The notes beneath the pieces were generated by a model. The model ran no database searches, was not told the origin of the DNA, and worked only from the letters and a program-made list of their open reading frames with translations. The translations under genes were made by a program, and so were the position numbers. Of a stretch of 64,000 nt of DNA, positions 15,501-60,849 are shown in pieces; the stretch's first letter is position 1; every line of letters begins with the position of its first letter. Source of the stretch: Bolinopsis microptera (Eukaryota; Ctenophora; Tentaculata; Lobata; Bolinopsidae); assembly GCF_026151205.1 (NCBI RefSeq), contig NC_087073.1, positions 22,762,987-22,826,986 on the forward strand, written 5' to 3'.

Positions 15501-18500
15501 TTGATAATGGCAGAGTGCTCAACAGTTGGTGTTGATAATGGCAGAGTGCTCAACAGTTGGTGTTGATAATGGCAGAGTGCTCAACAGTTGGTGTTGATAA
15601 TGGCAGAGTGCTCAACAGTTGGTGTTGATAATGGCAGAGTGCTCAACAGTTGGTGTTGATAATGGCAGAGTGCTCAACAGTTGGTGTTGATAATGGCAGA
15701 GTGCTCAACAGTTGGTGTTGATAATGGCAGAGTGCTCAACAGTTGGTGTTGATAATGGCAGAGTGCTCAACAGTTGGTGTTGATAATGGCAGAGTGCTCA
15801 ACAGTTGGTGTTGATAATGGCAGAGTGCTCAACAGTTGGTGTTGATAATGGCGGAGTGCTCAACAGTTGGTGTTGATAATGGCAGAGTGCTCAATAGTTG
15901 GTGTTGATAATGGCAGAGTGCTCAACAGTTGGTGTTGATAATGGCAGAGTGCTCAACAGTTGGTGTTGATAATGGCAGAGTGCTCAACAGTTGGTATTGA
16001 TAATGGCAGAGTGCTCAACAGTTGGTGTTGATAATGGCAGAGTGCTCAACAGTTGGTGTTGATAATGGCAGAGTGCTCAACAGTTGGTGTTGATAATGGC
16101 AGAGTGCTCAACAGTTGGTGTTGATAATGGCAGAGTGCTCAACAGTTGGTGTTGATAATGGCAGAGTGCTCAACAGTTGGTGTTGATAATAGCAGAGTGC
16201 TCAATAGTTGGTGTTGATAATGGCAGAGTGCTCAACAGTTGTTGTTGATAATGGCAGAGTGCTCAACAGTTGTTGTTGATAATGGCAGAGTGCTCAACAG
16301 TTGGTGTTGATAATGGCAGAGTGCTCAACAGTTGGATGTTGATAATGGCAGAGTGCTCAACAGTTGGTGTTGATAATGGCAGAGTGCTCAACAGTTGGTG
16401 TTGATAATGGCAGAGTGCTCAACAGTTGGTGGTGATAATGGCAGAGTGCTCAACAGTTGGTGTTGATAATGACAGAGTGCTCAACAGTAGTTGTTGATAA
16501 TGGCAGAGTGCTCAACAGTTGGTGTTGATAATGGCAGAGTGCTCAACAATTGGTGTTGATAATGTCAGATTGCTCAACAGTTGGTGTTGATAATGGCAGA
16601 GTGCTCAACAGTTGGTGTTGATAATGGCAGAGTGCTCAACAGTTGGTGTTGATAATGGCAGAGTGCTCAACAGTTGGTGTTGATAATGGCAGATTTCTCA
16701 ACAGTTGGTGTTGATAATGGCAGAGTGCTCAACAGTTGGTGTTGATAATGGCAGAGTGCTCAACAGTTGGTGTTGATAATGGCAGAGTGCTCAACAGTTG
16801 GTGTTGATAATGGCAGAGTGCTCAACAGTTGGTGTTGATAATGGCAGAGTGCTCAACAGTTGGTGTTGATAATGGCAGAGTGCTCAACAGTTGGTGTTGA
16901 TAATGGCAGAGTGCTCAACAGTTGGTGTTGATAATGGCAGATTGCTCAACAGTTGGTGTTGATAATGACAGAGTGCTCAACAGTAGTTGTTGATAATGGC
17001 AGAGTGCTCAACAGTTGGTGTTGATAATGGCAGAGTGCTCAACAGTTGGTGTTGATAATGTCAGATTGCTCAACAGTTGGTGTTGATAATGGCAGAGTGC
17101 TCAACAGTTGGTGTTGATAATGGCAGAGTGCTCAACAGTTGGTGTTGATAATGGCAGAGTGCTCAACAGTTGGTGTTGATAATGGCAGAGTGCTCAACAG
17201 TTGGTGTTGATAATGGCAGAGTGCTCAACAGTTGGTGTTGATAATGGCAGAGTGCTCAACAGTTGGTGTTGATAATGGCAGAGTGCTCAACAGTTGGTGT
17301 TGATAATGGCAGAGTGCTCAACAGTTGGTGTTGATAATGGCAGAGTGCTCAACAGTTGGTGTTGATAATGGCAGAGTGCTCAACAGTTGGTGTTGATAAT
17401 GGCAGAATGCTCAACAGTTGGTGTTGATAATGGCAGAGTGCTCAACAGTTGGTGTTGATAATGGCAGAATGCTCAACAGTTGGTGTTGATAATGGCAGAG
17501 TGCTCAACAGTTGGTGTTGATAATGGCAGAGTGCTCAACAGTTGGTGTTGATAATGGCAGAGTGCTCAACAGTTGGTGTTGATAATGGCAGAATGCTCAA
17601 CAGTCGGTGTTGATAATGGCAGAGTGCTCAACAGTTGGTGTTGATAATGGCAGAATGCTCAACAGTCGGTGTTGATAATGGCAGAGTGCTCAACAGTTGG
17701 TGTTGATAATGGCAGAGTGCTCAACAGTTGGTGTTGATAATGGCAGAGTGCTCAACAGTTGGTGTTTATAATGGCAGAGTGCTCAATAGTTGGTGTTGAT
17801 AATGGCAGATTGCTCAACAGTAGTATAATACTACTTCCTTTATCTGTAGAAGTACAGAATAAATAAATGTATATTGGATGTATATGGATCTGAAAATATT
17901 CCCGTCTATAGTTGGTGATATTCTATATAACTTCCGACCCGGGGTTTGAGACTTGGAATAGCTCAAGGGACCCATCAGAAACAAATTTGACTTGGGTAGA
18001 AATTTTGGCTATGGTGCAGTTTTGTGCAATTGATCACGCACACCCTTTAAAATCAAAATAACTCCGCTTCTAATTGGAGTAAGAAACTCAACTTGGCCAT
18101 AAAAATGTGCAGAATTATCACATTTAGTGGGATATAGCATAAAAAAGTCCTCAGACATCGAGTTTGATGAGTTATCTGGCCACACCTATTTTCGCTCTCG
18201 CGAGTCGCATTTTACGCACTAAATACAAAATACAAAATATTTCCGCTTCTGATTGAGCTAACTGCTCATCTCGGGCAGAATCATGGTAGTAAGTAGGGTA
18301 GAGCATGACGTCAGGTTGTTGCAATTACAGCGGGGGTTACAGCACTTAATTAATACTACATGCCTTGTAATTACAGCGGGGGTACAGCACTTAATTAATT
18401 ATACTTTACTACATGCCTTGTAATTACAGCGGGGGTACAGCACTTAATTAATTATACTTTACTACATGCCTTGTAATTACAGCGGGGGTACAGCACTTAA

Positions 18501-21500
18501 TTAATTATACTTTACTACATGCCTTGTAATTACAGCGGGGGTACAGCACTTAATTAATTATACTTTACTACATGCCTTGTAATTACAGCGGGGGTACAGC
18601 ACTTAATTAATAATGCTTTACTACATGCCTTGCCCCGTAGTCATTGACAACGTGCGTCTTGGCAGTGCCAGTAATACCATCGTGGTGTTGGAACAAGGAC
18701 AACGTGTTTCTAGCCATCACAAACGCTCCTTTTCTCAGATCTGAGCGGTAAAAGGAAAACAGTATCTCCGTCCTCCTGAAAACGAGTAATTTAAAGTATA
18801 GAGCGCAATTACCATGGTAACACCATGGTAACACACACCCAGTATATAGCGGACTATATAGCGGACTATATAGCGGACTATATAGCGGACTATATAGCCA
18901 CACTCACGGAATGTTAAGTCAATTGTCTTGTTGTTGGTTTAGGAAAATTGGATCACTGGATAATGCTAATATTACACAGTCAGTAACAACACACTCGTTA
19001 CACAGTCAGTAACAACACACTCGTTACACAGTCAGTAACAACACACTCGTTACACAGTCAGTAACAACACACTCGTTACACAGTCAGTAACAACACACTC
19101 GTTACACAGTCAGTAACAACACACTCGTTACACAGTCAGTAACAACACACTCGTTACACAGTCAGTAACAACACACTCGTTACACAGTCAGTAACAACAC
19201 ACTCGTTACACAGTCAGTAACAACACACTCGTTACACAGTCAGTAACAACACACTCGTTACACAGTCAGTAACAACACACTCGTTACACAGTCAGTAACA
19301 ACACACTAGTTACACAGTCAGTAACAACACACTCGTTACACAGTCAGTAACAACACACTCGTTACACAGTCAGTAACAACACACTCGTTACACAGTCAGT
19401 AACAACACACTCGTTACACAGTCAGTAACAACACACTCGTTACACAGTCAGTAACAACACACTCGTTACACAGTCAGTAACAACACACTCGTTACACAGT
19501 CAGTAACAACACACTCGTTACACAGTCAGTAACAACACACTCGTTACACAGTCAGTAACAACACACTCGTTACACAGTCAGTAACAACACACTCGTTACA
19601 CAGTCAGTAACAACACACTCGTTACACAGTCAGTAACAACACACTCGTTACACAGTCAGTAACAACACACTCGTTACACAGTCAGTAACAACACACTCGT
19701 TACACAGTCAGTAACAACACACTCGTTACACAGTCAGTAACAACACACTCGTTACACAGTCAGTAACAACACACTCGTTACACAGTCAGTAACAACACAC
19801 TCGTTACACAGTCAGTAACAACACACTCGTTACACAGTCAGTAACAACACACTCGTTACACAGTCAGTAACAACACACTCGTTACACAGTCAGTAACAAC
19901 ACACTCGTTACACAGTCAGTAACAACACACTCGTTACACAGTCAGTAACAACACACTCGTTACACAGTCAGTAACAACACACTCGTTACACAGTCAGTAA
20001 CAACACACTCGTTACACAGTCAGTAACAACACACTCGTTACACAGTCAGTAACAACACACTCGTTACACAGTCAGTAACAACACACTCGTTACACAGTCA
20101 GTAACAACACACTCGTTACACAGTCAGTAACAACACACTCGTTACACAGTCAGTAACAACACACTCGTTACACAGTCAGTAACAACACACTCGTTACACA
20201 GTCAGTAACAACACACTCGTTACACAGTCAGTAACAACACACTCGTTACACAGTCAGTAACAACACACTCGTTACACAGTCAGTAACAACACACTAGTTA
20301 CACAGTCAGTAACAACACACTCGTTACACAGTCAGTAACAACACACTCGTTACACAGTCAGTAACAACACACTCGTTACACAGTCAGTAACAACACACTC
20401 GTTACACAGTCAGTAACAACACACTCGTTACACAGTCAGTAACAACACACTCGTTACACAGTCAGTAACAACACACTCGTTACACAGTCAGTAACAACAC
20501 ACTCGTTACACAGTCAGTAACAACACACTCGTTACACAGTCAGTAACAACACACTCGTTACACAGTCAGTAACAACACACTCGTTACACAGTCAGTAACA
20601 ACACACTCGTTACACAGTCAGTAACAACACACTCGTTACACAGTCAGTAACAACACACTCGTTACACAGTCAGTAACAACACACTCGTTACACAGTCAGT
20701 AACAACACACTCGTTACACAGTCAGTAACAACACACTCGTTACACAGTCAGTAACAACACACTCGTTACACAGTCAGTAACAACACACTCGTTACACAGT
20801 CAGTAACAACACACTCGTTACACAGTCAGTAACAACACACTCGTTACACAGTCAGTAACAACACACTCGTTACACAGTCAGTAACAACACACTCGTTACA
20901 CAGTCAGTAACAACACACTCGTTACACAGTCAGTAACAACACACTCGTTACACAGTCAGTAACAACACACTCGTTACACAGTCAGTAACAACACACTCGT
21001 TACACAGTCAGTAACAACACACTCGTTACACAGTCAGTAACAACACACTCGTTACACAGTCAGTAACAACACACTCGTTACACAGTCAGTAACAACAAAC
21101 TCATTACACAGTCAGTAACAACACACTCGTTACACAGTCAGTGTTGCTATGGCAACTGGTTACTATGGTAACTAGTTACTATGGTAACTGGGGTACAGGT
21201 CACATATTTAAAACTAACCTCAGGGCTGACTCCAACACTCGGTCCAAGTTTTTGTAAAAGGGTCGTGAAGTGTAATAACCACTCCAGTAGTCTGCTTGTC
21301 TGCAACACATTAACTGGTTACTATGGTAACTGGTTACTATGGTAACTGGTTACTATGGTAACTGGTTACTATGGTAACTGGTTACTATGGTAACTGGTTA
21401 CTATGGTAACTGGTTACTATGGTAACTGGTTACTATGGTAACTGGTTACTATGGTCGTGAAGTGTAATAACCACTCCAGTAGTCTGCTTGTCTGCAACAC

Positions 21501-24500
21501 ATTAACTGGTTACTATGGTAACTGGTTACTATGGTAACTGGTTACTATGGTAACTGGTTACTATGGTAACTGGTTACTATGGTAACTGGTTACCATGGTA
21601 ACTGGTTACCATGGTAACTGGTTACTATGGTCGTGAAGTGTAATAACCACTCCAGTAGTCTGCTTGTCTGCAACACATTAACTGGTTACTATGGTAACTG
21701 GTTACTATGGTAACTGGTTACTATGGTAACTGGTTACTATGGTAACTGGTTACTATGGTAACTGGTTACTATGGTAACTGGTTACTATGGTAACTTGTTA
21801 CTATGGTCGTGAAGTGTAATAACCACTCCAGTAGTCTGCTTGTCTGCAACACATTAACTGGTTACTATGGTAACTGGTTACTATGGTAACTGGTTACTAC
21901 GGTAACTGGTTACTACGGTAACTGGTTACTACGGTAACTGGTTACTACGGTAACTGGTTACTACGGTAACTGGTTACTACGGTAACTGGTTACTACGGTA
22001 ACTGGTTACTACGGTAACTGGTTACTACGGTAACTGGTTACTACGGTAACTGGTTACTACGGTAACTGGTTACTACGGTAACTGGTTACTACGGTAACTG
22101 GTTACTACGGTAACTGGTTACTACGGTAACTGGTTACTACGGTAACTGGTTACTACGGTAACTGGTTACTACGGTAACTGGTTACTACGGTAACTGGTTA
22201 CTACGGTAACTGGTTACTACGGTAACTGGTTACTACGGTAACTGGTTACTACGGTAACTGGTTACTACGGTAACTGGTTACTACGGTAACTGGTTACTAC
22301 GGTAACTGGTTACTACGGTAACTGGTTACTACGGTAACTGGTTACTACGGTAACTGGTTACTACGGTAACTGGTTACTACGGTAACTGGTTACTACGGTA
22401 ACTGGTTACTACGGTAACTGGTTACTATGGTCGTGAAGTGTAATAACCACTCCAGTAGTCTGCTTGTCTGCAACACATTATTATGTGTACGGGGGGGGGG
22501 GGGATCATACACTTAGTACCGTACGTGACGTTGGATAGTTGGGGAAGAAGTGAGAGTCTCACTTCGTCCCCAACTATCCAATATGATCGATAAACATTAT
22601 TATTTGATTAAGAATCATTTTTAATTAGATTTATTATATAATCGTAAATTATTATTCATAGATTTTTGACATTATTGCGAAATATTCTTGAATTAGAAGT
22701 CCATCCTTACAACGACAGTGTACAATTATTATAAGTGATAACAGCGTCACCATGCTGCCACCACAGCGCCACCATGCTGCCACCACAGTGCCACCATGCT
22801 GCTACCACAGTGCCACCATGCTGCTACCACAGCGCCACCATGCTGCTACCACAGTGCCACCCTGCTGCTACCACAGCGCCACCATGGTGCTACCACAGTG
22901 CCACCATGCTGCTACCACAGTGCCACCATGCTGCTACCACAGTGCCACCATGCTGCTACCACAGCGCCACCATGCTGCTACCACAGCGCCACTATGCTTC
23001 TACCACAGCGCCACCATGCTGCTACCACAGCGCCACCATAATAATTGTACACTGTCGTTGTAAGGATGGACTTCTAATTCAAGAATATTTCGAAATAATG
23101 TCAAAAATCTATGAATAATAATAGTAAAGTAAACACGGATATACATTACAGCAATACAGAGATATACATGTACATTGTACCACTAACCTCTTATCACCAA
23201 TATAAGAAGGTGTTACCTGTTATCTCTAATATAAGAAGGTGTTACCTGTTACCACTAATATAAGGAGGTGTTACCTGTTTCCACTAGTATAAGAAGGTGT
23301 TACCAGTTATCTCTAATATAAGAAGGTGTTACCTGTTTCCACTAATATAAGGAGGTGTTACCTGTTATCACTAATATAAGGAGGTGTTACCTGTTACCAC
23401 TAATATAAGGAGGTGTTACCTGTTATCACTAATATAAGGAGGTGTTACCTGTTATCTTTAATATAAGGAGGTGTTACCTGTTATCTCTATTATAAGGAGG
23501 TGTTACCTGTTATCTCTAATATAAGGAGGTGTTACCTGTTATCTTTAATATAAGGAGGTGTTACCTGTTATCACTAATATAAGGAGGTGTTACCTGTTAT
23601 CTCTAATATAAGGAGGTGTTACCTGTTATCTCTAATATAAGGAGGTGTTACCTGTTATCACTAATATAAGGAGGTGTTACCTGTTATCTTTAATATAAGG
23701 AGGTGTTACCTGTTACCACTAATATAAGGAGGTGTTACCTGTTACCACTAATATAAGGAGGTGTTACCTGTTACCACTAATATAAGGAGGTGTTACCTGT
23801 TATCTCTAATATAAGGAGGTGTTACCTGTTATCACTAATATAAGGAGGTGTTACCTGTTATCTTTAATATAAGGAGGTGTTACCTGTTATCTCTATTATA
23901 AGGAGGTGTTACCTGTTATCTCTAATATAAGGAGGTGTTACCTGTTATCACTAATATAAGGAGGTGTTACCTGTTATCTCTAATATAAGGAGGTGTTACC
24001 TGTTATCACTAATATAAGGAGGTGTTACCTGTTATCTTTAATATAAGGAGGTGTTACCTGTTATCACTAATATAAGGAGGTGTTACCTGTTATCTTTAAT
24101 ATAAGGAGGTGTTACCTGTTATCTCTATTATAAGGAGGTGTTACCTGTTACCACTAATATAAGGAGGTGTTACCTGTTATCTCTAATATAAGGAGGTGTT
24201 ACCTGTTATCTCTATTATAAGGAGGTGTTACCTGTTACCACTAATATAAGGAGGTGTTACCTGTTATCTCTATTATAAGGAGGTGTTACCTGTTACCACT
24301 AATATAAGGAGGTGTTACCTGTTATCTCTAATATAAGGAGGTGTTACCTGTTATCTCTATTATAAGGAGGTGTTACCTGTTACCACTAATATAAGGAGGT
24401 GTTACCTGTTATCTCTAATATAAGGAGGTGTTACCTGTTATCTTTAATATAAGGAGGTGTTACCTGTTATCTCTATTATAAGGAGGTGTTACCTGTTATC

Positions 24501-27500
24501 TCTAATATAAGGAGGTGTTACCTAATACCTGTTATCTCTATTATAAAGTTATAAGGAGGTATTAATGTAAGGTATTACCTGTCGGAGTATGTGAAGAAGT
24601 CGCCAGACAGTGCAGCTAGTTTCTGTGTACCGTGTTCTCTCACGTGTTCAAAATACTCACTCAGCACACCCCAGCTTACCTGAAAGTTATTTAATAGTAA
24701 AGACCCCCGTCGCCCCCTCCCCCCCCCCCCCCAAATCTCCACCCCCCCCCCCCCTCTTTTGGTGCCCCCTCCCCCTCTTAAAGCATGAAGTTAAAATTGG
24801 GCAGATTAGAACTCTAGGGGGATAACAGCTCAGAACTACAGGGGCCAGGGGGGAGTGAACTACAGGGGGGGGGGGAGTGAACTACAGGGGGGGGGGGGAG
24901 TGAACGACAGGCTAGGGGGCCAGGGGGAAAACAGCTCACTTAATTTACAATGGACGAACAAATCTTACCTTGCTGTTCAAATCAGGCTGACTGTTTATGT
25001 AGTTCATTATCGGCTGAAGAGAATTGAAACTTAACGCAATTATAAAGCAATGAAAGGCATTAGTTTGGTCAAATCAAACGGAACATATGCTATCAGACTT
25101 TCAACTGACTATGGCAGGGTTAAAACAGTTTTAACGCTAGCAACGATCCCCTTTTACATAGTTCCACTAAAATGATAATTTAAGATTAAATATGTATACT
25201 GTATAGTGATAGGTAGATAAAGTAAAAATTGTAATAAAACGGTAGGTATAAAGTATACTAAGTAAACGTAGTCAACACGTCATAAAACGAACTGACCCAA
25301 ACTACAATTACTCCCGCGTAATTTCCCGCGTAATTCTAGAACTCCGATTTGCGCCGCTGCAAAGTTATTATAAAACTAAATTCAACACGTGCGACAAATA
25401 TTTCGCAACATTAGAAAAGGATGCCATAGGTCAAGCTATGGCATTAATATATTTCCACACCCAATACCAAACTTATTCTTTAGCCCATGCCTCTTTACCA
25501 CTGATAAGTATATTTTACTAAGACGATCCCGTCTAAAACCCAACTCAATTAAATCATCAGTAAACTTCAAAACCCTATCAGAAAAAGCAACAACGTTATT
25601 ACAGATCCTAGAATATCTCACAACCTGTGAACAGTACGTGCCATATAATACACTACTAGCTTGATTACTCATCAAAGGTTGAAACTTGACCACTTTAAAA
25701 CCAAACTTATCCCTTTTATCATAAACTCTACAAGAAAACTTCCCCTCGCTATTTATCGAAATATCAAGATCTAATACATTGGCGGCACTATCTACTTCAT
25801 TTTCCTTATTAAGAGTAAGAGAGTCTGGATATATCCTGCAACACATAAGAAGCACCATAACACATGTATATTTGTGATAGATATATTAGATAACTAGCAG
25901 GTAACTAGGGTAACTAGCAGGTAACTAGGGTAACTAGCATGAACCCGTCGGCCGTCTTACCTTAAAGAGAAAAATTTGCCAAGTTTCAAGGATATAATAT
26001 ATATGTGTATATATCTATATTATATATGTGTGAGATATATCTCTCACGGTTTTTGTGGAAATTTGTGTTAAAGTTGATGTCGTGGTGTCAGTAAAATGGT
26101 ACGGATATATATATATATATATTATGATTGGCTACTGGGACACGTCATACACACGGTTGGATTGTTAATTCGGTTGAAATACCTTTACATCCATTGCATT
26201 ATCACCATAATCTGAACATGATTTATTAAAAATTTGCAATATTGAAAACGAAAAATCTGAATGGACTGAAAACTTTGAAACTGAAAGCTGCACTGAATTG
26301 ATGGAAGGCAAAAATATACTCATAACTAGCATGGTAATAACTACAAATGAACAGCAAATTTATATATAATATATATATATTATATCGTCTCGCTTTACAT
26401 ATAGTAAGATATAGTAAGATTAACCTTGTAGTTGTCGTACATCAAGTGTGCGTCTTCCTTTAGTGAGTAAGTAAAATCGTTCCCCAATTCAATAAACACC
26501 GCGTTCGTAGAGTGAAGGGCAGCTTTTAGTCTCCACTGCTCCAATATCTTCAGTGACCTGCAGTAGGGACTAGTAATCTAACCTCTCTACAACGTTCTCC
26601 TCTGTAGTAGGGACTAGTAAACTAACCTCTCTACAACGTTCTCCTCTGTAGTAGGGACCAGTAAACTAACCTCTCTACAACGTTCTCCTCTGTAGTAGGG
26701 ACCAGTAAACTAACCTCTCTACAACGTTCTCCTCTGTAGTAGGGACCAGTAAACTAACCTCTCTACAACGTTCTCCTCTGTAGTAGGGACTAGTAAACTA
26801 ACCTCTCTACAACGTTCTCCTCTGCAGTAGGGACTAGTAAACTAACCTCTCTACAACGTTCTCCTCTGCAGTAGGGACTAGTAAACTAACCTCTCTACAA
26901 CGTTCTCCTCTGTAGTAGGGACCAGTAAACTAACCTCTCTACAACGTTCTCCTCTGTAGTAGGGACCAGTAAACTAACCTCTCTACAACGTTCTCCTCTG
27001 TAGTAGGGACTAGTAAACTAACCTCTCTACAACGTTCTCCTCTGTAGTAGGGACTAGTAAACTAACCTCTCTACAACGTTCTCCTCTGTAGTAGGGACTA
27101 GTAAACTAACCTCTCTACAACGTTCTCCTCTGTAGTAGGGACCAGTAAACTAACCTCTCTACAACGTTCTCCTCTGTAGTAGGGACTAGTAAACTAACCT
27201 CTCTACAACGTTCTCCTCTGTAGTAGGGACTAGTAAACTAACCTCTCTACAACGTTCTCCTCTGTAGTAGGGACTAGTAAACTAACCTCTCTACAACGTT
27301 CTCCTCTGTAGTAGGGACCAGTAAACTAACCTCTCTACAACGTTCTCCTCTGTAGTAGGGACTAGTAAACTAACCTCTCTACAACGTTCTCCTCTGTAGT
27401 AGGGACTAGTAAACTAACCTCTCTACAACGTTCTCCTCTGTAGTAGGGACTAGTAAACTAACCTCTCTACAACGTTCTCCTCTGTAGTAGGGACTAGTAA

Positions 27501-30500
27501 ACTAACCTCTCTACAACGTTCTCCTCTGTAGTAGGGACCAGTAAACTAACCTCTCTACAACGTTCTCCTCTGTAGTAGGGACCAGTAAACTAACCTCTCT
27601 ACAACGTTCTCCTCTGTAGTAGGGACTAGTAAACTAACCTCTCTACAACGTTCTCCTCTGTAGTAGGGACTAGTAAACTAACCTCTCTACAACGTTCTCC
27701 TCTGTAGTAGGGACTAGTAAACTAACCTCTCTACAACGTTCTCCTCTGTAGTAGGGACCAGTAAACTAACCTCTCTACAACGTTCTACTCTGTAGTAGGG
27801 ACTAGTAAACTAACCTCTCTACAACGTTCTCCTCTGTAGTACGGACTAGTAAACTAACCTCTCTACAACGTTCTCCTCTGTAGTAGGGACTAGTAAACTA
27901 ACCTCTCTACAACGTTCTCCTCTGTAGTAGGGACTAGTAAACTAACCTCTCTACAACGTTCTCCTCTGTAGTAGGGACTAGTAAACTAACCTCTCTACAA
28001 CGTTCTCCTCTGTAGTAGGGACTAGTAAACTAACCTCTCTACAACGTTCTCCTCTGTAGTAGGGACTAGTAAACTAACCTCTCTACAACGTTCTCCTCTG
28101 TAGTAGGGACCAGTAAACTAACCTCTCTACAACGTTCTCCTCTGTAGTAGGGACTAGTAAACTAACCTCTCTACAACGTTCTCCTCTGTAGTAGGGACCA
28201 GTAAACTAACCTCTCTACAACGTTCTCCTCTGTAGTAGGGACCAGTAAACTAACCTCTCTACAACGTTCTCCTCTGTAGTAGGGACTAGTAAACTAACCT
28301 CTCTACAACGTTCTCCTCTGTAGTAGGGACTAGTAAACTAACCTCTCTACAACGTTCTCCTCTGTAGTAGGGACTAGTAAACTAACCTCTCTACAACGTT
28401 CTCCTCTGTAGTAGGGACCAGTAAACTAACCTCTCTACAACGTTCTCCTCTGTAGTAGGGACTAGTAAACTAACCTCTCTACAACGTTCTCCTCTGTAGT
28501 AGGGACTAGTAAACTAACCTCTCTACAACGTTCTCCTCTGTAGTAGGGACTAGTAAACTAACCTCTCTACAACGTTCTCCTCTGTAGTAGGGACTAGTAA
28601 ACTAACCTCTCTACAACGTTCTCCTCTGTAGTAGGGACCAGTAAACTAACCTCTCTACAACGTTCTCCTCTGTAGTAGGGACCAGTAAACTAACCTCTCT
28701 ACAACGTTCTCCTCTGTAGTAGGGACTAGTAAACTAACCTCTCTACAACGTTCTCCTCTGTAGTAGGGACCAGTAAACTAACCTCTCTACAACGTTCTCC
28801 TCTGTAGTAGGGACCAGTAAACTAACCTCTCTACAACGTTCTCCTCTGTAGTAGGGACCAGTAAACTAACCTCTCTACAACGTTCTCCTCTGTAGTAGGG
28901 ACTAGTAAACTAACCTCTCTACAACGTTCTCCTCTGTAGTAGGGACTAGTAAACTAACCTCTCTACAACGTTCTCCTCTGTAGTAGGGACTAGTAAACTA
29001 ACCTCTCTACAACGTTCTCCTCTGTAGTAGGGACCAGTAAACTAACCTCTCTACAACGTTCTCCTCTGTAGTAGGGACTAGTAAACTAACCTCTCTACAA
29101 CGTTCTCCTCTGTAGCTAGGGACTAGTAAACTAACCTCTCTACAACGTTCTCCTCTGTAGTAGGGACTAGTAAACTAACCTCTCTACAACGTTCTCCTCT
29201 GTAGTAGGGACTAGTAAACTTACCTCTCTACAACGTTCTCCTCTGTAGTAGGGACCAGTAAACTAACCTCTCTAAGACGTTCTCCTCTGTAGTAGGGACT
29301 AGTAAACTAACCTCTCTACAACGTTCTCCTCTGTAGTAGGGACCAGTAAACTAACCTCTCTAAGACGTTCTCCTCTGTAGTAGGGACTAGTAAACTAACC
29401 TCTCTACAACGTTCTCCTCTGTAGTAGGGACCAGTAAACTAACCTCTCTACAACGTTCTCCTCTGTAGTAGGGACTAGTAAACTAACCTCTCTACAACGT
29501 TTTCCTCTGTAGTAGGGACCAGTAAACTAACCTCTCTAAGACGTTCTCCTCTGTAGTAGGGACTAGTAAACTAACCTCTCTACAACGTTCTCCTCTGTAG
29601 TAGGGACCAGTAAACTAACCTCTCTACAACGTTCTCCTCTGTAGTAGGGACTAGTAAACTAACCTCTCTACAACGTTCTCCTCTGTACTAGGGACTAGTA
29701 AACTAACCTCTCTACAACGTTCTCCTCTGTAGTAGGGACTAGTAAACTAACCTCTCTACAACGTTCTCCTCTGTAGTAGGGACCAGTAAACTAACATCTC
29801 TACAACGTTCTCCTCTGTAGTAGGGACCAGTAAACTAACCTCTCTACAACGTTCTCCTCTGTAGTAGGGACTAGTAAACTAACCTCTCTACAACGTTCTC
29901 CTCTGTAGTAGGGACCAGTAAACTAACCTCTCTACAACGTTCTCCTCTGTAGTAGGGACCAGTAAACTAACCTCTCTACAACGTTCTCCTCTGTAGTAGG
30001 GACTAGTAAACTAACCTCTCTACAACGTTCTCCTCTGTAGTAGGGACTAGTAAACTAACCTCTCTACAACGTTCTCCTCTGTAGTAGGGACCAGTAAACT
30101 AACCTCTCTACAACGTTCTCCTCTGTAGTAGGGACTAGTAAACTAACCTCTCTACAACGTTCTCCTCTGTAGTAGGGACCAGTAAACTAACCTCTCTACA
30201 ACGTTCTCCTCTGTAGTAGGGACTAGTAAACTAACCTCTCTACAACGTTCTCCTCTGTAGTAGGGACCAGTAAACTAACCTCTCTACAACGTTCTCCTCT
30301 GTAGTAGGGACCAGTAAACTAACCTCTCTACAACGTTCTCCTCTGTAGTAGGGACTAGTAAACTAACCTCTCTACAACGTTCTCCTCTGTAGTAGGGACC
30401 AGTAAACTAACCTCTCTACAACGTTCTCCTCTGTAGTAGGGACTAGTAAACTAACCTCTCTACAACGTTCTCCTCTGTAGTAGGGACCAGTAAACTAACC

Positions 30501-33500
30501 TCTCTACAACGTTCTCCTCTGTAGTAGGGACTAGTAAACTAACCTCTCTACAACGTTCTCCTCTGTAGTAGGGACTAGTAAACTAACCTCTCTACAACGT
30601 TCTCCTCTGTAGTAGGGACCAGTAAACTAACCTCTCTACAACGTTCTCCTCTGTAGTAGGGACTAGTAAACTAACCTCTCTACAACGTTCTCCTCTGTAG
30701 TAGGGACTAGTAAACTAACCTCTCTACAACGTTCTCCTCTGTAGTAGGGACTAGTAAACTAACCTCTCTACAACGTTCTCCTCTGTAGTAGGGACCAGTA
30801 AACTAACCTCTCTACAACGTTCTCCTCTGTAGTAGGGACCAGTAAACTAACCTCTCTACAACGTTCTCCTCTGTAGTAGGGACTAGTAAACTAACCTCTC
30901 TACAACGTTCTCCTCTGTAGTAGGGACTAGTAAACTAACCTCTCTACAACGTTCTCCTCTGTAGTAGGGACAGTAAACTAACCTCTCTACAACGTTCTCC
31001 TCTGTAGTAGGGACTAGTAAACTAACCTCTCTACAACGTTCTCCTCTGTAGTAGGGACTAGTAAACTAACCTCTCTACAACGTTCTCCTCTGTAGTAGGG
31101 ACTAGTAAACTAACCTCTCTACAACGTTCTCCTCTGTAGTAGGGACTAGTAAACTAACCTCTCTACAACGTTCTCCTCTGTAGTAGGGACTAGTAAACTA
31201 ACCTCTCTACAACGTTCTCCTCTGTAGTAGGGACTAGTAAACTAACCTCTCTACAACGTTCTCCTCTGTAGTAGGGACTAGTAAACTAACCTCTCTACAA
31301 CGTTCTCCTCTGTAGTAGGGACCAGTAAACTAACCTCTCTACAACGTTCTCCTCTGTAGTAGGGACCAGTAAACTAACCTCTCTACAACGTTCTCCTCTG
31401 TAGTAGGGACCAGTAAACTAACCTCTCTACAACGTTCTCCTCTGTAGTAGGGACCAGTAAACTAACCTCTCTACAACGTTCTCCTCTGTAGTAGGGACTA
31501 GTAAACTAACCTCTCTACAACGTTCTCCTCTGTAGTAGGGACTAGTAAACTAACCTCTCTACAACGTTCTCCTCTGTAGTAGGGACTAGTAAACTAACCT
31601 CTCTACAACGTTCTCCTCTGTAGTAGGGACCAGTAAACTAACCTCTCTACAACGTTCTCCTCTGTAGTAGGGACCTAGTAAACTAACCTCTCTACAACGT
31701 TCTCCTCTGTAGTAGGGACTAGTAAACTAACCTCTCTACAACGTTCTCCTCTGTAGTAGGGACCAGTAAACTAACCTCTCTACAACGTTCTCCTCTGTAG
31801 TAGGGACTAGTAAACTAACCTCTCTACAACGTTCTCCTCTGTAGTAGGGACCAGTAAACTAACCTCTCTACAACGTTCTCCTCTGTAGTAGGGACCAGTA
31901 AACTAACCTCTCTACAACGTTCTCCTCTGTAGTAGGGACTAGTAAACTAACCTCTCTACAACGTTCTCCTCTGTAGTAGGGACCAGTAAACTAACCTCTC
32001 TACAACGTTCTCCTCTGTAGTAGGGACCAGTAAACTAACCTCTCTACAACGTTCTCCTCTGTAGTAGGGACTAGTAAACTAACCTCTCTACAACGTTCTC
32101 CTCTGTAGTAGGGACTAGTAAACTAACCTCTCTACAACGTTCTCCTCTGTAGTAGGGACTAGTAAACTAACCTCTCTACAACGTTCTCCTCTGTAGTAGG
32201 GACTAGTAAACTAACCTCTCTACAACGTTCTCCTCTGTAGTAGGGACCAGTAAACTAACCTCTCTACAACGTTCTCCTCTGTAGTAGGGACTAGTAAACT
32301 AACCTCTCTACAACGTTCTCCTCTGTAGTAGGGACTAGTAAACTAACCTCTCTACAACGTTCTCCTCTGTAGTAGGGACTAGTAAACTAACCTCTCTACA
32401 ACGTTCTCCTCTGTAGTAGGGACTAGTAAACTAACCTCTCTACAACGTTCTCCTCTGTAGTAGGGACCTAGTAAACTAACCTCTCTACAACGTTCTCCTC
32501 TGTAGTAGGGACTAGTAAACTAACCTCTCTACAACGTTCTCCTCTGTAGTAGGGACCAGTAAACTAACCTCTCTACAACGTTCTCCTCTGTAGTAGGGAC
32601 TAGTAAACTAACCTCTCTACAACGTTCTCCTCTGTAGTAGGGACTAGTAAACTAACCTCTCTACAACGTTCTCCTCTGTAGTAGGGACCAGTAAACTAAC
32701 CTCTCTACAACGTTCTCTCTGTAGTAGGGACCAGTAAACTAACCTCTCTACAACGTTCTCCTCTGTAGTAGGGACCAGTAAACTAACCTCTCTACAACGT
32801 TCTCCTCTGTAGTAGGGACTAGTAAACTAACCTCTCTACAACGTTCTCCTCTGTAGTAGGGACTAGTAAACTAACCTCTCTACAACGTTCTCCTCTGTAG
32901 TAGGGACTAGTAAACTAACCTCTCTACAACGTTCTCCTCTGTAGTAGGGACCAGTAAACTAACCTCTCTACAACGTTCTCCTCTGTAGTAGGGACTAGTA
33001 AACTAACCTCTCTACAACGTTCTCCTCTGTAGTAGGGACTAGTAAACTAACCTCTCTACAACGTTCTCCTCTGTAGTAGGGACCAGTAAACTAACCTCTC
33101 TACAACGTTCTCCTCTGTAGTAGGGACTAGTAAACTAACCTCTCTACAACGTTCTCCTCTGTAGTAGGGACTAGTAAACTAACCTCTCTACAACGTTCTC
33201 CTCTGTAGTAGGGACCAGTAAACTAACCTCTCTACAACGTTCTCCTCTGTAGTAGGGACTAGTAAACTAACCTCTCTACAACGTTCTCCTCTGTAGTAGG
33301 GACTAGTAAACTAACCTCTCTACAACGTTCTCCTCTGTAGTAGGGACTAGTAAACTAACCTCTCTACAACGTTCTCCTCTGTAGTAGGGACTAGTAAACT
33401 AACCTCTCTACAACGTTCTCCTCTGTAGTAGGGACCTAGTAAACTAACCTCTCTACAACGTTCTCCTCTGTAGTAGGGACCAGTAAACTAACCTCTCTAC

Positions 33501-36500
33501 AACGTTCTCCTCTGTAGTAGGGACCAGTAAACTAACCTCTCTACAACGTTCTCCTCTGTAGTAGGGACTAGTAAACTAACCTCTCTACAACGTTCTCCTC
33601 TGTAGTAGGGACCTAGTAAACTAACCTCTCTACAACGTTCTCCTCTGTAGTAGGGACTAGTAAACTAACCTCTCTACAACGTTCTCCTCTGTAGTAGGGA
33701 CTAGTAAACTAACCTCTCTACAACGTTCTCCTCTGTAGTAGGGACTAGTAAACTAACCTCTCTACAACGTTCTCCTCTGTAGTAGGGACCAGTAAACTAA
33801 CCTCTCTACAACGTTCTCCTCTGTAGTAGGGACCAGTAAACTAACCTCTCTACAACGTTCTCCTCTGTAGTAGGGACCTAGTAAACTAACCTCTCTACAA
33901 CGTTCTCCTCTGTAGTAGGGACCAGTAAACTAACCTCTCTACAACGTTCTCCTCTGTAGTAGGGACTAGTAAACTAACCTCTCTACAACGTTCTCCTCTG
34001 TAGTAGGGACTAGTAAACTAACCTCTCTACAACGTTCTCCTCTGTAGTAGGGACTAGTAAACTAACCTCTCTACAACGTTCTCCTCTGTAGTAGGGACCA
34101 GTAAACTAACCTCTCTACAACGTTCTCCTCTGTAGTAGGGACCAGTAAACTAACCTCTCTACAACGTTCTCCTCTGTAGTAGGGACTAGTAAACTAACCT
34201 CTCTACAACGTTCTCCTCTGTAGTAGGGACTAGTAAACTAACCTCTCTACAACGTTCTCCTCTGTAGTAGGGACTAGTAAACTAACCTCTCTACAACGTT
34301 CTCCTCTGTAGTAGGGACCAGTAAACTAACCTCTCTACAACGTTCTCCTCTGTAGTAGGGACTAGTAAACTAACCTCTCTACAACGTTCTCCTCTGTAGT
34401 AGGGACTAGTAAACTAACCTCTCTACAACGTTCTCCTCTGTAGTAGGGACTAGTAAACTAACCTCTCTACAACGTTCTCCTCTGTAGTAGGGACTAGTAA
34501 ACTAACCTCTCTACAACGTTCTCCTCTGTAGTAGGGACCAGTAAACTAACCTCTCTACAACGTTCTCCTCTGTAGTAGGGACTAGTAAACTAACCTCTCT
34601 ACAACGTTCTCCTCTGTAGTAGGGACCAGTAAACTAACCTCTCTACAACGTTCTCCTCTGTAGTAGGGACTAGTAAACTAACCTCTCTACAACGTTCTCC
34701 TCTGTAGTAGGGACCAGTAAACTAACCTCTCTACAACGTTCTCCTCTGTAGTAGGGACCAGTAAACTAACCTCTCTACAACGTTCTCCTCTGTAGTAGGG
34801 ACTAGTAAACTAACCTCTCTACAACGTTCTCCTCTGTAGTAGGGACCAGTAAACTAACCTCTCTACAACGTTCTCCTCTGTAGTAGGGACTAGTAAACTA
34901 ACCTCTCTACAACGTTCTCCTCTGTAGTAGGGACCAGTAAACTAACCTCTCTACAACGTTCTCCTCTGTAGTAGGGACTAGTAAACTAACCTCTCTACAA
35001 CGTTCTCCTCTGTAGTAGGGACTAGTAAACTAACCTCTCTACAACGTTCTCCTCTGTAGTAGGGACTAGTAAACTAACCTCTCTACAACGTTCTCCTCTG
35101 TAGTAGGGACCAGTAAACTAACCTCTCTACAACGTTCTCCTCTGTAGTAGGGACCAGTAAACTAACCTCTCTACAACGTTCTCCTCTGTAGTAGGGACTA
35201 GTAAACTAACCTCTCTACAACGTTCTCCTCTGTAGTAGGGACCAGTAAACTAACCTCTCTACAACGTTCTCCTCTGTAGTAGGGACCAGTAAACTAACCT
35301 CTCTACAACGTTCTCCTCTGTAGTAGGGACTAGTAAACTAACCTCTCTACAACGTTCTCCTCTGTAGTAGGGACTAGTAAACTAACCTCTCTACAACGTT
35401 CTCCTCTGTAGTAGGGACCAGTAAACTAACCTCTCTACAACGTTCTCCTCTGTAGTAGGGACTAGTAAACTAACCTCTCTACAACGTTCTCCTCTGTAGT
35501 AGGGACCAGTAAACTAACCTCTCTACAGACGTTCTCCTCTGTAGTAGGGACTAGTAAACTAACCTCTCTACAACGTTCTCCTCTGTAGTAGGGACCAGTA
35601 AACTAACCTCTCTACAACGTTCTCCTCTGTAGTAGGGACCAGTAAACTAACCTCTCTACAACGTTCTCCTCTGTAGTAGGGACTAGTAAACTAACCTCTC
35701 TACAACGTTCTCCTCTGTAGTAGGGACTAGTAAACTAACCTCTCTACAACGTTCTCCTCTGTAGTAGGGACCAGTAAACTAACCTCTCTACAACGTTCTC
35801 CTCTGTAGTAGGGACCAGTAAACTAACCTCTCTACAACGTTCTCCTCTGTAGTAGGGACTAGTAAACTAACCTCTCTACAACGTTCTCCTCTGTAGTAGG
35901 GACCAGTAAACTAACCTCTCTACAACGTTCTCCTCTGTAGTAGGGACCAGTAAACTAACCTCTCTACAACGTTCTCCTCTGTAGTAGGGACTAGTAAACT
36001 AACCTCTCTACAACGTTCTCCTCTGTAGTAGGGACTAGTAAACTAACCTCTCTACAACGTTCTCCTCTGTAGTAGGGACTAGTAAACTAACCTCTCTACA
36101 ACGTTCTCCTCTGTAGTAGGGACCAGTAAACTAACCTCTCTACAACGTTCTCCTCTGTAGTAGGGACTAGTAAACTAACCTCTCTACAACGTTCTCCTCT
36201 GTAGTAGGGACCAGTGAACTAACCTCTCTACAACGTTCTCCTCTGTAGTAGGGACCAGTAAACTAACCTCTCTAAGACGTTCTCCTGTGTAGTAGGGACT
36301 AGTAAACTGACCTCTCTACAACGTTCTCCTCTGTAGTAGGGACCAGTAAACTAACCTCTCTAAGACGTTCTCCTCTGTAGTAGGGACTAGTAAACTAACC
36401 TCTCTACAACGTTCTCCTCTGTAGTAGGGACCAGTAAACTAACCTCTCTACAACGTTCTCCTCTGTTTTAGGGACCAGTAAACTAACCTCTCTACAACGT

Positions 36501-39500
36501 TCTCCTCTGTAGTAGGGACTAGTAAACTAACCTCTCTAAGACGTTCTCCTCTGTAGTAGGGACCAGTAAACTAACCTCTCTAAGACGTTCTCCTCTGTAG
36601 TAGGGACTAGTAAACTAACCTCTCTACAACGTTCTCCTCTGTAGTAGGGACCAGTAAACTAACCTCTCTACAACGTTCTCCTCTGTAGTAGGGACTAGTA
36701 AACTAACCTCTCTACAACGTTCTCCTCTGTAGTAGGGACCAGTAAACTAACCTCTCTACAACGTTCTCCTCTGTAGTAGGGACCAGTAAACTAACCTCTC
36801 TACAACGTTCTCCTCTGTAGTAGGGACTAGTAAACTAACCTCTCTACAACGTTCTCCTCTGTAGTAGGGACTAGTAAACTAACCTCTCTACAACGTTCTC
36901 CTCTGTAGTAGGGACCAGTAAACTAACCTCTCTAAGACGTTCTCCTCTGTAGTAGGGACTAGTAAACTAACCTCTCTACAACGTTCTCCTCTGTAGTAGG
37001 GACCAGTAAACTAACCTCTCTAAGACGTTCTCCTCTGTAGTAGGGACTAGTAAACTAACCTCTCTACAACGTTCTCCTCTGTAGTAGGGACCAGTAAACT
37101 AACCTCTCTACAACGTTCTCCTCTGTTTTAGGGACCAGTAAACTAACCTCTCTACAACGTTCTCCTCTGTAGTAGGGACTAGTAAACTAACCTCTCTACA
37201 ACGTTCTCCTCTGTAGTAGGGACTAGTAAACTAACCTCTCTACAACGTTCTCCTCTGTAGTAGGGACCAGTAAACTAACCTCTCTACAACGTTCTCCTCT
37301 GTAGTAGGGACCAGTAAACTAACCTCTCTACAACGTTCTCCTCTGTAGTAGGGACTAGTAAACTAACCTCTCTACAACGTTCTCCTCTGTAGTAGGGACC
37401 AGTAAACTAACCTCTCTACAACGTTCTCCTCTGTAGTAGGGACCAGTAAACTAACCTCTCTACAACGTTCTCCTCTGTAGTAGGGACTAGTAAACTAACC
37501 TCTCTACAACGTTCTCCTCTGCAGTAGGGACTAGTAAACTAACCTCTCTACAACGTTCTCCTCTGCAGTAGGGACTAGTAAACTAACCTCTCTACAACGT
37601 TCTCCTCTGTAGTAGGGACCAGTAAACTAACCTCTCTACAACGTTCTCCTCTGTAGTAGGGACTAGTAAACTAACCTCTCTACAACGTTCTCCTCTGTAG
37701 TAGGGACCAGTGAACTAACCTCTCTACAACGTTCTCCTCTGTAGTAGGGACCAGTAAACTAACCTCTCTAAGACGTTCTCCTGTGTAGTAGGGACTAGTA
37801 AACTAACCTCTCTACAACGTTCTCCTCTGTAGTAGGGACCAGTAAACTAACCTCTCTAAGACGTTCTCCTCTGTAGTAGGGACTAGTAAACTAACCTCTC
37901 TACAACGTTCTCCTCTGTAGTAGGGACCAGTAAACTAACCTCTCTACAACGTTCTCCTCTGTTTTAGGGACCAGTAAACTAACCTCTCTACAACGTTCTC
38001 CTCTGTAGTAGGGACTAGTAAACTAACCTCTCTAAGACGTTCTCCTCTGTAGTAGGGACCAGTAAACTAACCTCTCTAAGACGTTCTCCTCTGTAGTAGG
38101 GACTAGTAAACTAACCTCTCTACAACGTTCTCCTCTGTAGTAGGGACCAGTAAACTAACCTCTCTACAACGTTCTCCTCTGTAGTAGGGACTAGTAAACT
38201 AACCTCTCTACAACGTTCTCCTCTGTACTAGGGACTAGTAAACTAACCTCTCTACAACGTTCTCCTCTGTAGTAGGGACTAGTAAACTAACCTCTCTACA
38301 ACGTTCTCCTCTGTAGTAGGGACTAGTAAACTAACCTCTCTACAACGTTTTCCTCTGTAGTAGGGACCAGTAAACTAACCTCTCTAAGACGTTCTCCTCT
38401 GTAGTAGGGACTAGTAAACTAACCTCTCTACAACGTTCTCCTCTGTAGTAGGGACCAGTAAACTAACCTCTCTAAGACGTTCTCCTCTGTAGTAGGGACT
38501 AGTAAACTAACCTCTCTACAACGTTCTCCTCTGTAGTAGGGACCAGTAAACTAACCTCTCTACAACGTTCTCCTCTGTTTTAGGGACCAGTAAACTAACC
38601 TCTCTACAACGTTCTCCTCTGTAGTAGGGACTAGTAAACTAACCTCTCTACAACGTTCTCCTCTGTAGTAGGGACTAGTAAACTAACCTCTCTACAACGT
38701 TCTCCTCTGTAGTAGGGACCAGTAAACTAACCTCTCTACAACGTTCTCCTCTGTAGTAGGGACCAGTAAACTAACCTCTCTACAACGTTCTCCTCTGTAG
38801 TAGGGACTAGTAAACTAACATCTCTACAACGTTCTCCTCTGTAGTAGGGACTAGTAAACTAACCTCTCTACAACGTTCTCCTCTGTAGTAGGGACCAGTA
38901 AACTAACCTCTCTACAACGTTCTCCTCTGTAGTAGGGACTAGTAAACTAACCTCTCTACAACGTTCTCCTCTGTAGTAGGGACCAGTAAACTGCCGCTCT
39001 TAAAACATTCCCTGAATCCCCCGTTCCTCATATCCATAAAGTTAAACATGCAGCAAACCTGAAAGTATAGTGTCCGTGAGTGTGACAGAAAGAAAACGTC
39101 TTCAAGTAATATGTTAACACGTGATGCCCAAATAAGGTAATGTTAACAACGTGTTACCCCACGTGATGCCCAAATAAGGTAATGTTAACAATGTGTTACC
39201 CCACGTGATGCCCAAATAAGGTAATGTTAACAATGTGTTACCCCATGTGATGCCCAAATAAGGTAATGTTAACAACGTGTTACCCCACGTGAAATTTTAT
39301 AAGGTAATGTTAACAACGTGTTACCCCACGTGATGCCCAAATAAGGTAATGTTAACAATGTGTTACCCCATGTGATGCCCAAATAAGGTAATGTTAACAA
39401 TGTGTTACCCCACGTGATGCCCAAATAAGGTAATGTTAACAATGTGTTACCCCACGTGATGCCCAAATAAGGTAATGTTAACAACGTGTTACCCCACGTG

Positions 39501-42500
39501 AAATTGTATAAGGTAATGTTAACAACGTGTTACCCCACGTGATGCCCAAATAAGGTAATGTTAACAATGTGTTACCCCACGTGATGCCCAAATAAGGTAA
39601 TGTTAACAATGTGTTACCCCACGTGATGCCCAAATAAGGTAATGTTAACAACGTGTTACCCCACGTGATGCCCAAATAAGGTAATGTTAACAATGTGTTA
39701 CCCCACGTGATGCCCAAATAAGGTTATGTTAACAACGTGTTACCCCACGTGAAATTTTATAAGGTAATGTTAACAACGTGTTACCCCACGTGATGCCCAA
39801 ATAAGGTAATGTTAACAATGTGTTACCCACGTGATGCCCAAATAAGGTACTGTTAACAATGTGTTACCCCACGTGATGCCCAAATAAGGTAATGTTAACA
39901 ATGTGTTACCCCACGTGATGCCCAAATAAGGTAATGTTAACAACGTGTTACCCCACGTGATGCCCAAATAAGGTAATGTTAACAATGTGTTACCCCATGT
40001 GATGCCCAAATAAGGTAATGTTAACAACGTGTTACCCTACGTGATGCCCAAATAAGGTAATGTTAACAACGTGTTACCCCACGTGAAATTTTATAAGGTA
40101 ATGTTAACAACGTGTTACCCCACGTGATGCCCAAATAAGGTAATGTTAACAATGTGTTACCCCACGTGATGCCCAAATAAGGTAATGTTAATAATGTGTT
40201 ACCCCACGTGATGCCCAAATAAGGTAATGTTAACAACGTGTTACCCCACGTGATGCCCAAATAAGGTAATGTTAACAATGTGTTACCCTACGTGATGCCC
40301 AAATAAGGTAATGTTAACAACGTGTTACCCCACGTGAAATTTTATAAGGTAATGTTAACAACGTGTTACCCCACGTGATGCCCAAATAAGGTAATGTTAA
40401 CAATGTGTTACCCCACGTGATGCCCAAATAAGGTAATGTTAACAATGTGTTACCCCACGTGATGCCCAAATAAGGTAATGTTAACAACGTGTTACCCCAC
40501 GTGATGCCCAAATAAGGTAATGTTAACAACGTGTTACCCCACGTGATGCCCAAATAAGGTAATGTTAACAACGTGTTACCCCACGTGATGCCCAAATAAG
40601 GTAATGTTAACAATGTGTTACCCTACGTGATGCCCAAATAAGGTAATGTTAACAACGTGTTACCCCACGTGAAATTTTATAAGGTAATGTTAACAACGTG
40701 TTACCCCACGTGATGCCCAAATAAGGTAATGTTAACAATGTGTTACCCCACGTGATGCCCAAATAAGGAACTAACGTCAGGGTCTGGCCCGCAGGAGTGT
40801 TGTTGTCCGTACGACACGAAAGGGCCCAGGTGAGTCAGCATATCTGTCACTCCCTCAGAATCTGAAGTATTGTGTGTCTTACTGAGTGATATTCTAGTAT
40901 ATTATATTCTAGTATATTATATATGATATTTAAATGGTGGTTAAGGGGTTTTCCAAAACTCCAGGGGCTCGTGAAGTGTCTTACACAACCTCTCCGAGCC
41001 CAAGATCCGTAGTGCGTGGTGAAGAGCCACACCCTTCTCGAGGTGCCACTGTTAAGCTTAGTAGCCTGTTCTGGGTGATTCCAGTTAAAACAGGTGAACG
41101 GTAACAGAACACTGCGGCTCTAGACCAGTACAGGTCGAAAAATATAACCGGGACATCTGTCTCGTTAGGACTGCATGCGGTTCATCGGGTGCGAAGGGCC
41201 AGCATCCCTTCCACCTCAAATAACAACGCTACAGAAACAACAAGGAAAAACCGTGATAGGAGTGATTCTCGGAATGCAAGGAACGGTGATTCCAGTATGA
41301 AGCGGTCTGGGCAAAGCCGCAAGGACCCCAGGACGCAGATGAGAACGAAGAGGTCACCTTATTGCCACAGTGTTATTAGTTCACACATCACCAACGTGAA
41401 CGCCGAAAAAGGGAGATCATCCCCTTCAAATTTTATAAAAAACAGACTTAACTTGGGGACGTGGAATGTTCTGTCTCTGGAAAGCAGCACATCGAAGCTT
41501 TATGAATTGTCACAGAATGTTTCTAAGTACAAGTTGGATGTTCTGGGTCTTACGGAAACACATAGACCAGGTACTGGTGAGGAAATGCTGGATAATGGGT
41601 CATTGTTCATTTATTCAGGGAGATCGGATGGGCATAGGAGGCAGGGTGTTGGGTTGGTTCTGTCAAAAACCGTCAAGAATTCGCTTATCTCTTACACCCC
41701 TATGTCGGAGCGTATCCTAGCAGCTAGACTACATAGTCGGCACATCAATATTTCTGTTGTGGTGGCCTATGCTCCTACGGAGGATGCGCAGGATAGCGTT
41801 AAGGACGATTTTTATCAGCAGTTGGGTGGATCATTCGACAGCCTACCCAGTCACGACGTGAAGATTCTTCTTGGTGACTTCAACGCCAAGATTGGTCGCG
41901 ACAACTCATCTTGGTCTGGGGTAATTGGAGGAGAGTCCTTACATGAGACGTCAAGTAATAACGGACTTCGGCTGTTGGATTTCTGTGCCATGTATCAGTT
42001 GACAGTTGGGGGAACATTGTTTCAACACAAGGACATCCATAAAGGCACCTGGAGGTCCCCCAATGGCCGTACTGTCAATCAGATAGATCATGTTTGTATC
42101 TCTACCAAGTGGAGTCACTCTCTTCTTGATGTTCGAACTTATAGAGGTGCAGGCATAGGCTCTGATCACTACTTGGTCAAGAGTCCTATGAGGATCAAAC
42201 TGATGGTAATCAAAAAGATACAAGGGTCACATAGAAAAGCACCAGCTATCGAGCTTCTGCGTGACCAATCTAAGGTGCAGGAGTATTGCATCGCACTGCA
42301 TAACCGATTCAGTGGTCTGCCGGCGGAAGAGAGTCTGGATGGAGAGTGGGAGTTGGTCAAGGAGGGCATCAAGGAGGTTTCTTTGGAGGTTTTGGGTCAA
42401 CGCCCGCGCCGGAGGAAGAAGCAGCACTTGTCACAAGAGACAAAGGATCTCATCACGGAGCGGAGTAAGGTCAAGCAGAAATGCCCAAGTGATGGATTCA

Positions 42501-57790: not shown

Positions 57791-58530
57791 TATAACAAAT
57801 AAGTTTTAATACTTCCAACACTACTATATAACAAATAATTTGAGGATGTACCATGGAAGTCTAGAGTACCCGCAACAAGAAATGCAGCTGTAAACGACTT
57901 GGTAACGGGGTGCATGTGAGCTCTGGGGGCCAGTGGCATCAGAAGACTGGCTATCAGCCTTGGAAATAAGATGAGTTCTTTAGATTCATGTCACATCTGC
58001 ACTGCATCTCCATCACAATGACACAAACTCTTTCTCCTTCACTACCCTACCCTACCCTAGCCTAGCCCTACCCCTCCCTCCTTTTACCTGTTGCGGGTAC
58101 TCTGGACTGCATGGACATCCTTGAATAGAGGTATTTTATATAGTAGTGTTGTGGTATTATACTGTGTACATGTATATATATTCTATCCTATATTATATAT
58201 CAATATATTCTATATCTATATTATATACTGTATATTTTATATACAAACTTTTCCTTACCCCCACCTCCCCTTCCTCTATAAATTGTACTCAAATCCCACA
58301 CCCAACCTGCTATTGACTTACTAAATAACCTCTATATCTCTACATTGGGCCATAGCAGTCCACCCCGCTCCCTTCCCCTCCCTCCCCTATTCCACCAAGC
58401 ACCAACATCTCTCCAAATCACATCATAAACTTTCATGTAATTAGACCTTGTGTTCCTTTTTTATTTTATTTTGAAAATGATTTTGTTTAACTTTACCTCT
58501 TTACCTGATATCACTCACCCCTGTCAAAAC
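57791..58530. other. Spacer and probable LINE 5' region
   Basis: A duplicated ACTACTATATAACAAATAA block (57,784-57,840), a CCCTA-rich stretch (58,045-58,080) and TA-rich sequence are present. The last part may be the 5' UTR of the LINE that follows, but I cannot place its start. Confidence 0.4.
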
Positions 58531-58531
58531 T

Positions 58532-60800: not shown

Positions 60801-60849
60801 ATTAACCCTAAAATTCAAGAAAAAACAAGTATCACGAGATCAAGTCGCT

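Follow-up and report, generated by a model that had tools for sequence, protein, structure and literature searches.

A 12.4-kb intron in the alpha-mannosidase II gene of the ctenophore Bolinopsis microptera consists of a 44-bp tandem repeat, the unit of which is the boundary between the preceding exon and the intron itself. The gene lies on the minus strand of the window analysed here, a 64,000-nt stretch of contig C2 (C2:22762987-22826986) in an assembly of 264.65 Mb and 232 contigs, where C1-C13 measure 15.2-26.2 Mb each, C14 measures 0.2 Mb and four other small contigs inspected are shorter; a search for COX1 gave no match in it, and hence no mitochondrial contig. We consider it likely that the array is a minisatellite of the type termed mirage in amphioxus, in which a splice junction was amplified within a pre-existing intron and the outermost pair of splice sites is used by exon definition. 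This account builds on the observed anatomy of the array, its reading frames, an intron older than the array, a database protein in which the junction is joined and further arrays of this kind, both in the mannosidase gene and in a second one; from these we infer a history of duplication, the use of exon definition and the decay of mis-spliced forms.

Homology along the enzyme places the gene in family GH38, as a phmmer search with its exon-joined peptide hits solved structures of mannosidase II (E 8.3e-47 to 1hty_A) and its relatives are annotated with PF01074. The alignment of the spliced peptide to these structures covers the exon piece that recurs in the array, and the two coding exons flanking the array (exons 12 and 13) are joined as expected in the NCBI Bolinopsis protein model P0006 and in the Mnemiopsis ortholog P0001. 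The end of exon 12 is thus coding, as an earlier reading of this DNA (hereafter the sequence-only reading) had proposed.

Tandem Repeats Finder (TRF) delimits the array at 26558-38992, with a period of 44, 282.5 copies and 97% matches. Read on the minus strand, the unit is GTTAGTTTACTAGTCCCTACTACAGAGGAGAACGTTGTAGAGAG, comprising the final 41 nt of exon 12 followed by GTT, and each copy therefore crosses the exon-intron boundary. The sequence-only reading was right in describing the junction itself in tandem at about 280 copies, each with exon end and donor, while its exon share of 40 nt falls one nucleotide short. Segmentation yielded 282 units in 22 types, the last type being a partial unit with exon 13 attached; the two commonest (n = 135 and n = 103) differ at one base, and the exonic copy of 41 nt is identical to the final 41 nt of the second (103/282). 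Splice signals are repeated along with the exon sequence: GTTAGT stands at the start of 279 of the 282 segmented units and, of the 273 units measuring exactly 44 bp, 259 contain CCCTACTACAG, so donors and acceptor-like sites do occur by the hundred. The partial unit terminates in CCCTACTGCAG immediately 5' of exon 13, confirming the earlier suggestion that the real acceptor lies inside the last unit, and VPTT-coding exon sequence thereby doubles as a 3' splice site. Chance is ruled out by the presence of 282 near-identical copies. Six rare unit types near the exon reappear 34 units further on, with 21 of 25 neighbouring units agreeing at that lag, which points to a segmental duplication within the array; a lag of 73 scores equally, but through common unit types.

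By pattern count there are 280 donors, of which only the first opens a frame into exon 13. All of the other 279 meet an in-frame TAG 10 nt past the normal exon end, a stricter outcome than the sequence-only reading had foreseen in stating that mis-spliced forms would mostly be out of frame. Of 275 stretches running from an acceptor-like CAG to the next donor, 271 form a 19-nt pseudo-exon; the pseudo-intron measures 25 nt, which is also the distance from the last donor to the real acceptor; inclusion of a single 19-nt piece shifts the frame. In a recursive splice site, with its zero-length exon, an acceptor AG is immediately followed by a donor GT, and the array was rejected as a series of such sites given the 19 nt between CAG and donor in the same 271 of 275 cases.

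Because the final 41 nt of the exon recur in every unit, the true donor is locally indistinguishable from its copies; local sequence cannot choose among identical sites, so position and exon size must. Exon definition is an established mode of splice-site pairing, and since the first donor closes a 107-nt exon and the last acceptor opens a 133-nt exon, it would take the outermost pair. Only these outermost sites border exons of normal size; almost all internal pairs enclose 19 or 25 nt, and such pseudo-exons and pseudo-introns are probably too short for recognition. We posit that a 44-bp stretch, made of 41 exon-end nucleotides and three intron bases, was tandemly duplicated inside a pre-existing intron, and that slippage or unequal exchange may then have amplified it until the whole intron was repeat and the acceptor itself a copy of the unit. 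Each added copy would be tolerated, since it falls inside the outermost pair of splice sites, and slips in splicing would produce early stop codons and lead to degradation. A repeat wholly within coding sequence would change the protein and a junction-crossing one would only lengthen the intron; the same exon-definition logic would thus account for the survival of junction arrays.

Five further places resemble the enzyme: a near-copy (B), three paralogs (C, D and E) and, on contig C1, a more distant sequence (36% identity). Paralog C (contig C2, 21.24 Mb) and paralog E (contig C5) carry plain introns of 206 bp and 111 bp, respectively, at the same position and phase as the array intron, indicating that the intron is older than the array and the array secondary, whereas paralog D (contig C3) has no intron at this site. 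Birth of the intron de novo at this place, through tandem copying of part of an exon as in the Rogers model, would suit an exon-derived acceptor, an intron made entirely of repeat and the intronless paralog D; we nevertheless think it unlikely and did not retain it, as the ordinary, repeat-free introns of C and E speak for an intron present before the duplication and make loss in D simpler than birth. Elsewhere in the gene such a birth is more plausible: six window introns, three of them with long arrays, have no counterpart in C and D, and these are unpolarised candidates for recent gain, with loss in C and D as an alternative.

Copy B lies inverted at C2:22.93-22.99 Mb. Outside repeats, it differs from the window by 78 mismatches in 3,814 aligned bases (about 2%), counted over 15 clean blocks of 35, two of which overlap by a few bases. 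The 20 excluded blocks comprise three in the error-rich stretch of B (78-87%), one at 84% in the error-rich stretch of the window, a 2,401-base block at 92% (82 mismatches), two cross-matches, each of 47 bases, that stem from a duplicated exon start, twelve matches to multi-copy sequence and one short match elsewhere. Copy B has the look of a second haplotype that was retained in the assembly, with a recent duplication as the alternative, and the former reading fits the published outline of the assembly, which describes purging of haplotigs and gap closing with TGS-Gapcloser (PMC10232365). The inverted pair (C2:22.76-22.83 Mb and its counterpart), matched by two NCBI protein models, is a probable leftover haplotig. 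Error-rich, unpolished patches break exons in both copies (window 8231-12900; on the B side about 12.1-23.3 kb of concatenated L029-L034), which may be why two NCBI proteins, P0006 and P0009, seem to be truncated or to skip exons.

The 44-bp array is also present in copy B, in error-rich sequence, where TRF reports 99 copies in 4.5 kb. Sequence resembling the repeat extends 5.8 kb to the next exon, or about 131 units. A length of 282 units in the window thus stands against 99 to about 131 in B, and a change of length between alleles is likely, if not clean, given the error-rich stretch and the possibility that B is a recent duplicate. Other repeats differ between the copies as well, among them a 26-bp repeat (83.5 copies in the window, about 1.5 in B) and a 53-bp unit (5.3 copies in the window, one in B). 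Gap closing and haplotig purging of the assembly, as described for it (PMC10232365), together with error-rich patches in both copies, could also suggest that the array is an assembly artefact. This we regard as extremely unlikely, because its 22 unit variants are arranged in an order, rare ones coming back at the 34-unit lag, and because the same array occurs at another length in the second copy, within read-like unpolished sequence. Only slightly more credible, and still very unlikely in our judgement, is a selected role for the array, such as poison splicing or a brake on enzyme expression that depends on length: output could drop with array length, every tested downstream donor leading to an early stop, but array content is very different between the two copies and paralogs C, D and E do not have the 44-bp array.

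Amplified junctions are found elsewhere in the mannosidase gene (Table 1). The donor at the 53-bp array was read from the paralogs as a GC donor, GGGGCAAG/GCATGT (slash, splice junction), and acceptor-side repeats stand at 46299 and 5015. Copy B carries a 41-bp array with 25 exon nucleotides (one mismatch) and the donor GTACGT, and a 23-bp array with GCAGG/GTGAGT. A 42-bp array upstream of exon 12 was left out of the junction arrays, since it begins 7 bp inside the preceding intron. Recurrence was examined at 39 hand-placed junctions of the window and B (20 donors and 19 acceptors). Allowing at most one mismatch, 3/20 donors and 3/19 acceptors recur at least three times nearby, against 7/187 exon-interior places, and the recurrences come from the 44-bp array, the 41-bp and 23-bp arrays of B, the TTGCAG/ACAAGC acceptor and the two acceptor-side repeats; with two mismatches (12-mer test), 7/20 and 10/19 recur, and the test is uninformative at that setting. 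Of 24 array edges in the gene, 6 lie no more than 15 bp from a mapped junction, as compared to 0.48 expected (p = 0.00005 by circular shift; p = 0.00015 by independent placement), arrays shorter than 100 bp, of period below 8 or located at 7.9-13.1 kb having been excluded. Across 15 window exons, both overlapping TRF arrays cross a junction and none lies inside an exon.

Junction arrays extend beyond this gene. Paralog C carries, at L035:6860-7590, an 11-copy array of a 66-bp unit (59 exon nucleotides followed by GTAAGTT) that repeats in frame the end of the active-site exon, reading HSHCDPG in most copies and HFHCDPG in one. A gene of the ANP32 family (phmmer E 1.7e-25 to 2jqd_A) contains 26 or more copies of a 69-bp acceptor and exon-start unit, likewise in frame, with 59 nt of exon start and 10 nt read as intron end, the junction being set by homology and an AG; each copy, if included, would add 23 residues. 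Genome-wide, triplets of AGGTRAGT spaced 8-38 bases number 2,579, against 197 for the pattern backwards, 739 permuted and 758 permuted backwards, an excess of 3.4- to 13-fold over three patterns of the same composition, while TTTCAGG triplets number 1,252 against 316 backwards. These matches are not independent, one array yielding many; among the matches listed, in the first 2.51 Mb of C1, the donor pattern corresponds to 5 arrays and the permuted pattern to 1. The excess fits widespread donor arrays, placement in genes not being implied. We see an even chance that junction amplification is genome-wide, fast and ongoing, that it rewrites and sometimes creates introns in this ctenophore, with arrays arising or expanding within two allele-like copies, and that exon definition resolves the hundreds of equal sites in a gene to the outermost pair.

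Several observations weigh against these interpretations. The assembled array length may be inexact, and the joined junction of Bolinopsis comes from P0006, a database protein model. Junctions of the window gene model were assigned manually, which could bias them towards array edges, and when no mismatches are allowed just 2/20 donors and 1/19 acceptors recur. Arrays spanning or touching junctions (6/12, as compared to 3.9-4.0 expected) are not significantly in excess (p = 0.12-0.19); as long arrays cover junctions by chance, the edge test was used instead. Taken as a whole, array units in 264 kb show no clear enrichment for 5' splice sites (2/47 as compared to 0.42 expected, mean percentile 0.48), as scored with a splice-site matrix, and in two chaperonin genes examined (L053 and L054) no array overlaps an exon. 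Within these TCP-1 family genes we observed a 30-bp array of 61 copies that ends about 20 bp before an acceptor (L053:2948-4775), and one 20-bp repeat of 2.5 copies that ends 3 bp before another acceptor. Elsewhere in the window, plus-strand positions 58481-64000 contain long open frames resembling, by eye, a long interspersed nuclear element (LINE)-type retroelement.

Table 1. Exons, splice sites and repeat arrays of the mannosidase II locus, with one array of another gene. Positions are those of the window unless stated; a slash marks the splice junction.
Feature	Position	Strand	Remarks
Upstream coding exon (exon 12)	38952..39058	minus	107 nt, phase 2 end
Exonic first repeat copy, final 41 nt of exon 12	38952..38992	minus	holds CCCTACTACAG as coding sequence
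First donor, GAG/GTTAGT	38946..38951	minus	first base 38951; sole frame-keeping donor among 280 tested; junction joined in NCBI protein P0006
Intron, wholly 44-bp repeat	26558..38951	minus	12,394 nt; 281 units and a partial one
Final partial unit, GTTAGATTACTAGTCCCTACTGCAG, with real acceptor	26558..26582	minus	
Downstream coding exon (exon 13)	26425..26557	minus	133 nt; begins at 26557
53-bp x5.3 array crossing donor by 4 exon nt	18354..18632	minus	single copy in B
Acceptor and 39 nt of exon start, TTGCAG/ACAAGC..., 5 times among 16-bp repeats	21261..22473	minus	2 times in B
Acceptor-side array CTCAG/GTTRGCACAGGAGGGTA, 3 copies with at most one mismatch	46283..46494	minus	intron absent in C and D
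28-bp x83 array starting exactly at donor	47204..49527	minus	no exon sequence in unit; missing at that donor in B
42-bp x39.5 array	39118..40768	minus	no clear exon sequence in unit
Introns absent from C and D	49527-46299, 46168-46036, 24968-24679, 24578-21299, 21218-18775, 5442-5311		in the window
ANP32-family gene array	L034:8035-10000 (C2 near 22.988 Mb)	minus	

The sequence-only reading knew of no gene with this layout, a statement that does not survive comparison with amphioxus, for which junction-spanning arrays, mostly under the name of mirages, are reported in the Adh3, globin, troponin C and PGBD5 genes (PMC3087553, PMC3902484). These are described as minisatellite-like repeats over 5' and 3' exon-intron boundaries, with AG/GT signals repeated, length differences between haplotypes and mRNA reported to be normal; units measure 10-72 bp in Adh3, for which somatic instability is also reported. 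BflGb6 is the one globin gene among these with counts (3 and 6 units in two haplotypes), and BflGb9 is also a mirage globin (PMC3087553, PMC3902484). The Bolinopsis unit similarly crosses an exon-intron boundary and repeats splice signals, and by the defining features examined the array would belong to the mirage class. Unlike the amphioxus arrays as described, it reaches 282 units and 12.4 kb, as compared to the 3 and 6 units of BflGb6, makes up a whole intron, is one of several arrays in a single gene and resides in a ctenophore.

Other systems share some of these features. Intron gain under the Rogers model has been described for ATP2A1, the 24-bp repeats of fission yeast and potato RdRp, where tandem copies of exon sequence provide the splice sites of an intron, as in Bolinopsis; here, by contrast, the intron predates the repeat and copies are far above the two to four of fission yeast (PMC4974935). 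In Cryptococcus CNN00420, a polymorphic expansion over exon ends likewise changes intron structure, but its repeats of about 107 nt are described as each containing a full intron that is used and supported by expressed sequence tags (PMC2395259). Boundary repeats also alter gene structure between recent copies in human segmental duplications, and the passages available of that account show no intron made wholly of donors (PMC2812944). No ctenophore case appeared among the matches listed in the openly licensed literature. New in Bolinopsis are the scale, a wholly replaced intron with hundreds of donors, the phylum, the presence of several arrays per gene, the ANP32-family case and the genome-wide excess of tandem 5' splice-site triplets.

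The array amounts to a natural minigene series, in which hundreds of sequence-identical donors and acceptors stand in one transcript. It would extend junction minisatellites from amphioxus to ctenophores and would offer, in one genome, many recent steps from plain to repeat introns. This locus would be a natural setting in which to test how a cell selects one of many identical splice sites, as an extreme case, relative to the published amphioxus descriptions, of the same phenomenon in the gene for a sugar-trimming enzyme.

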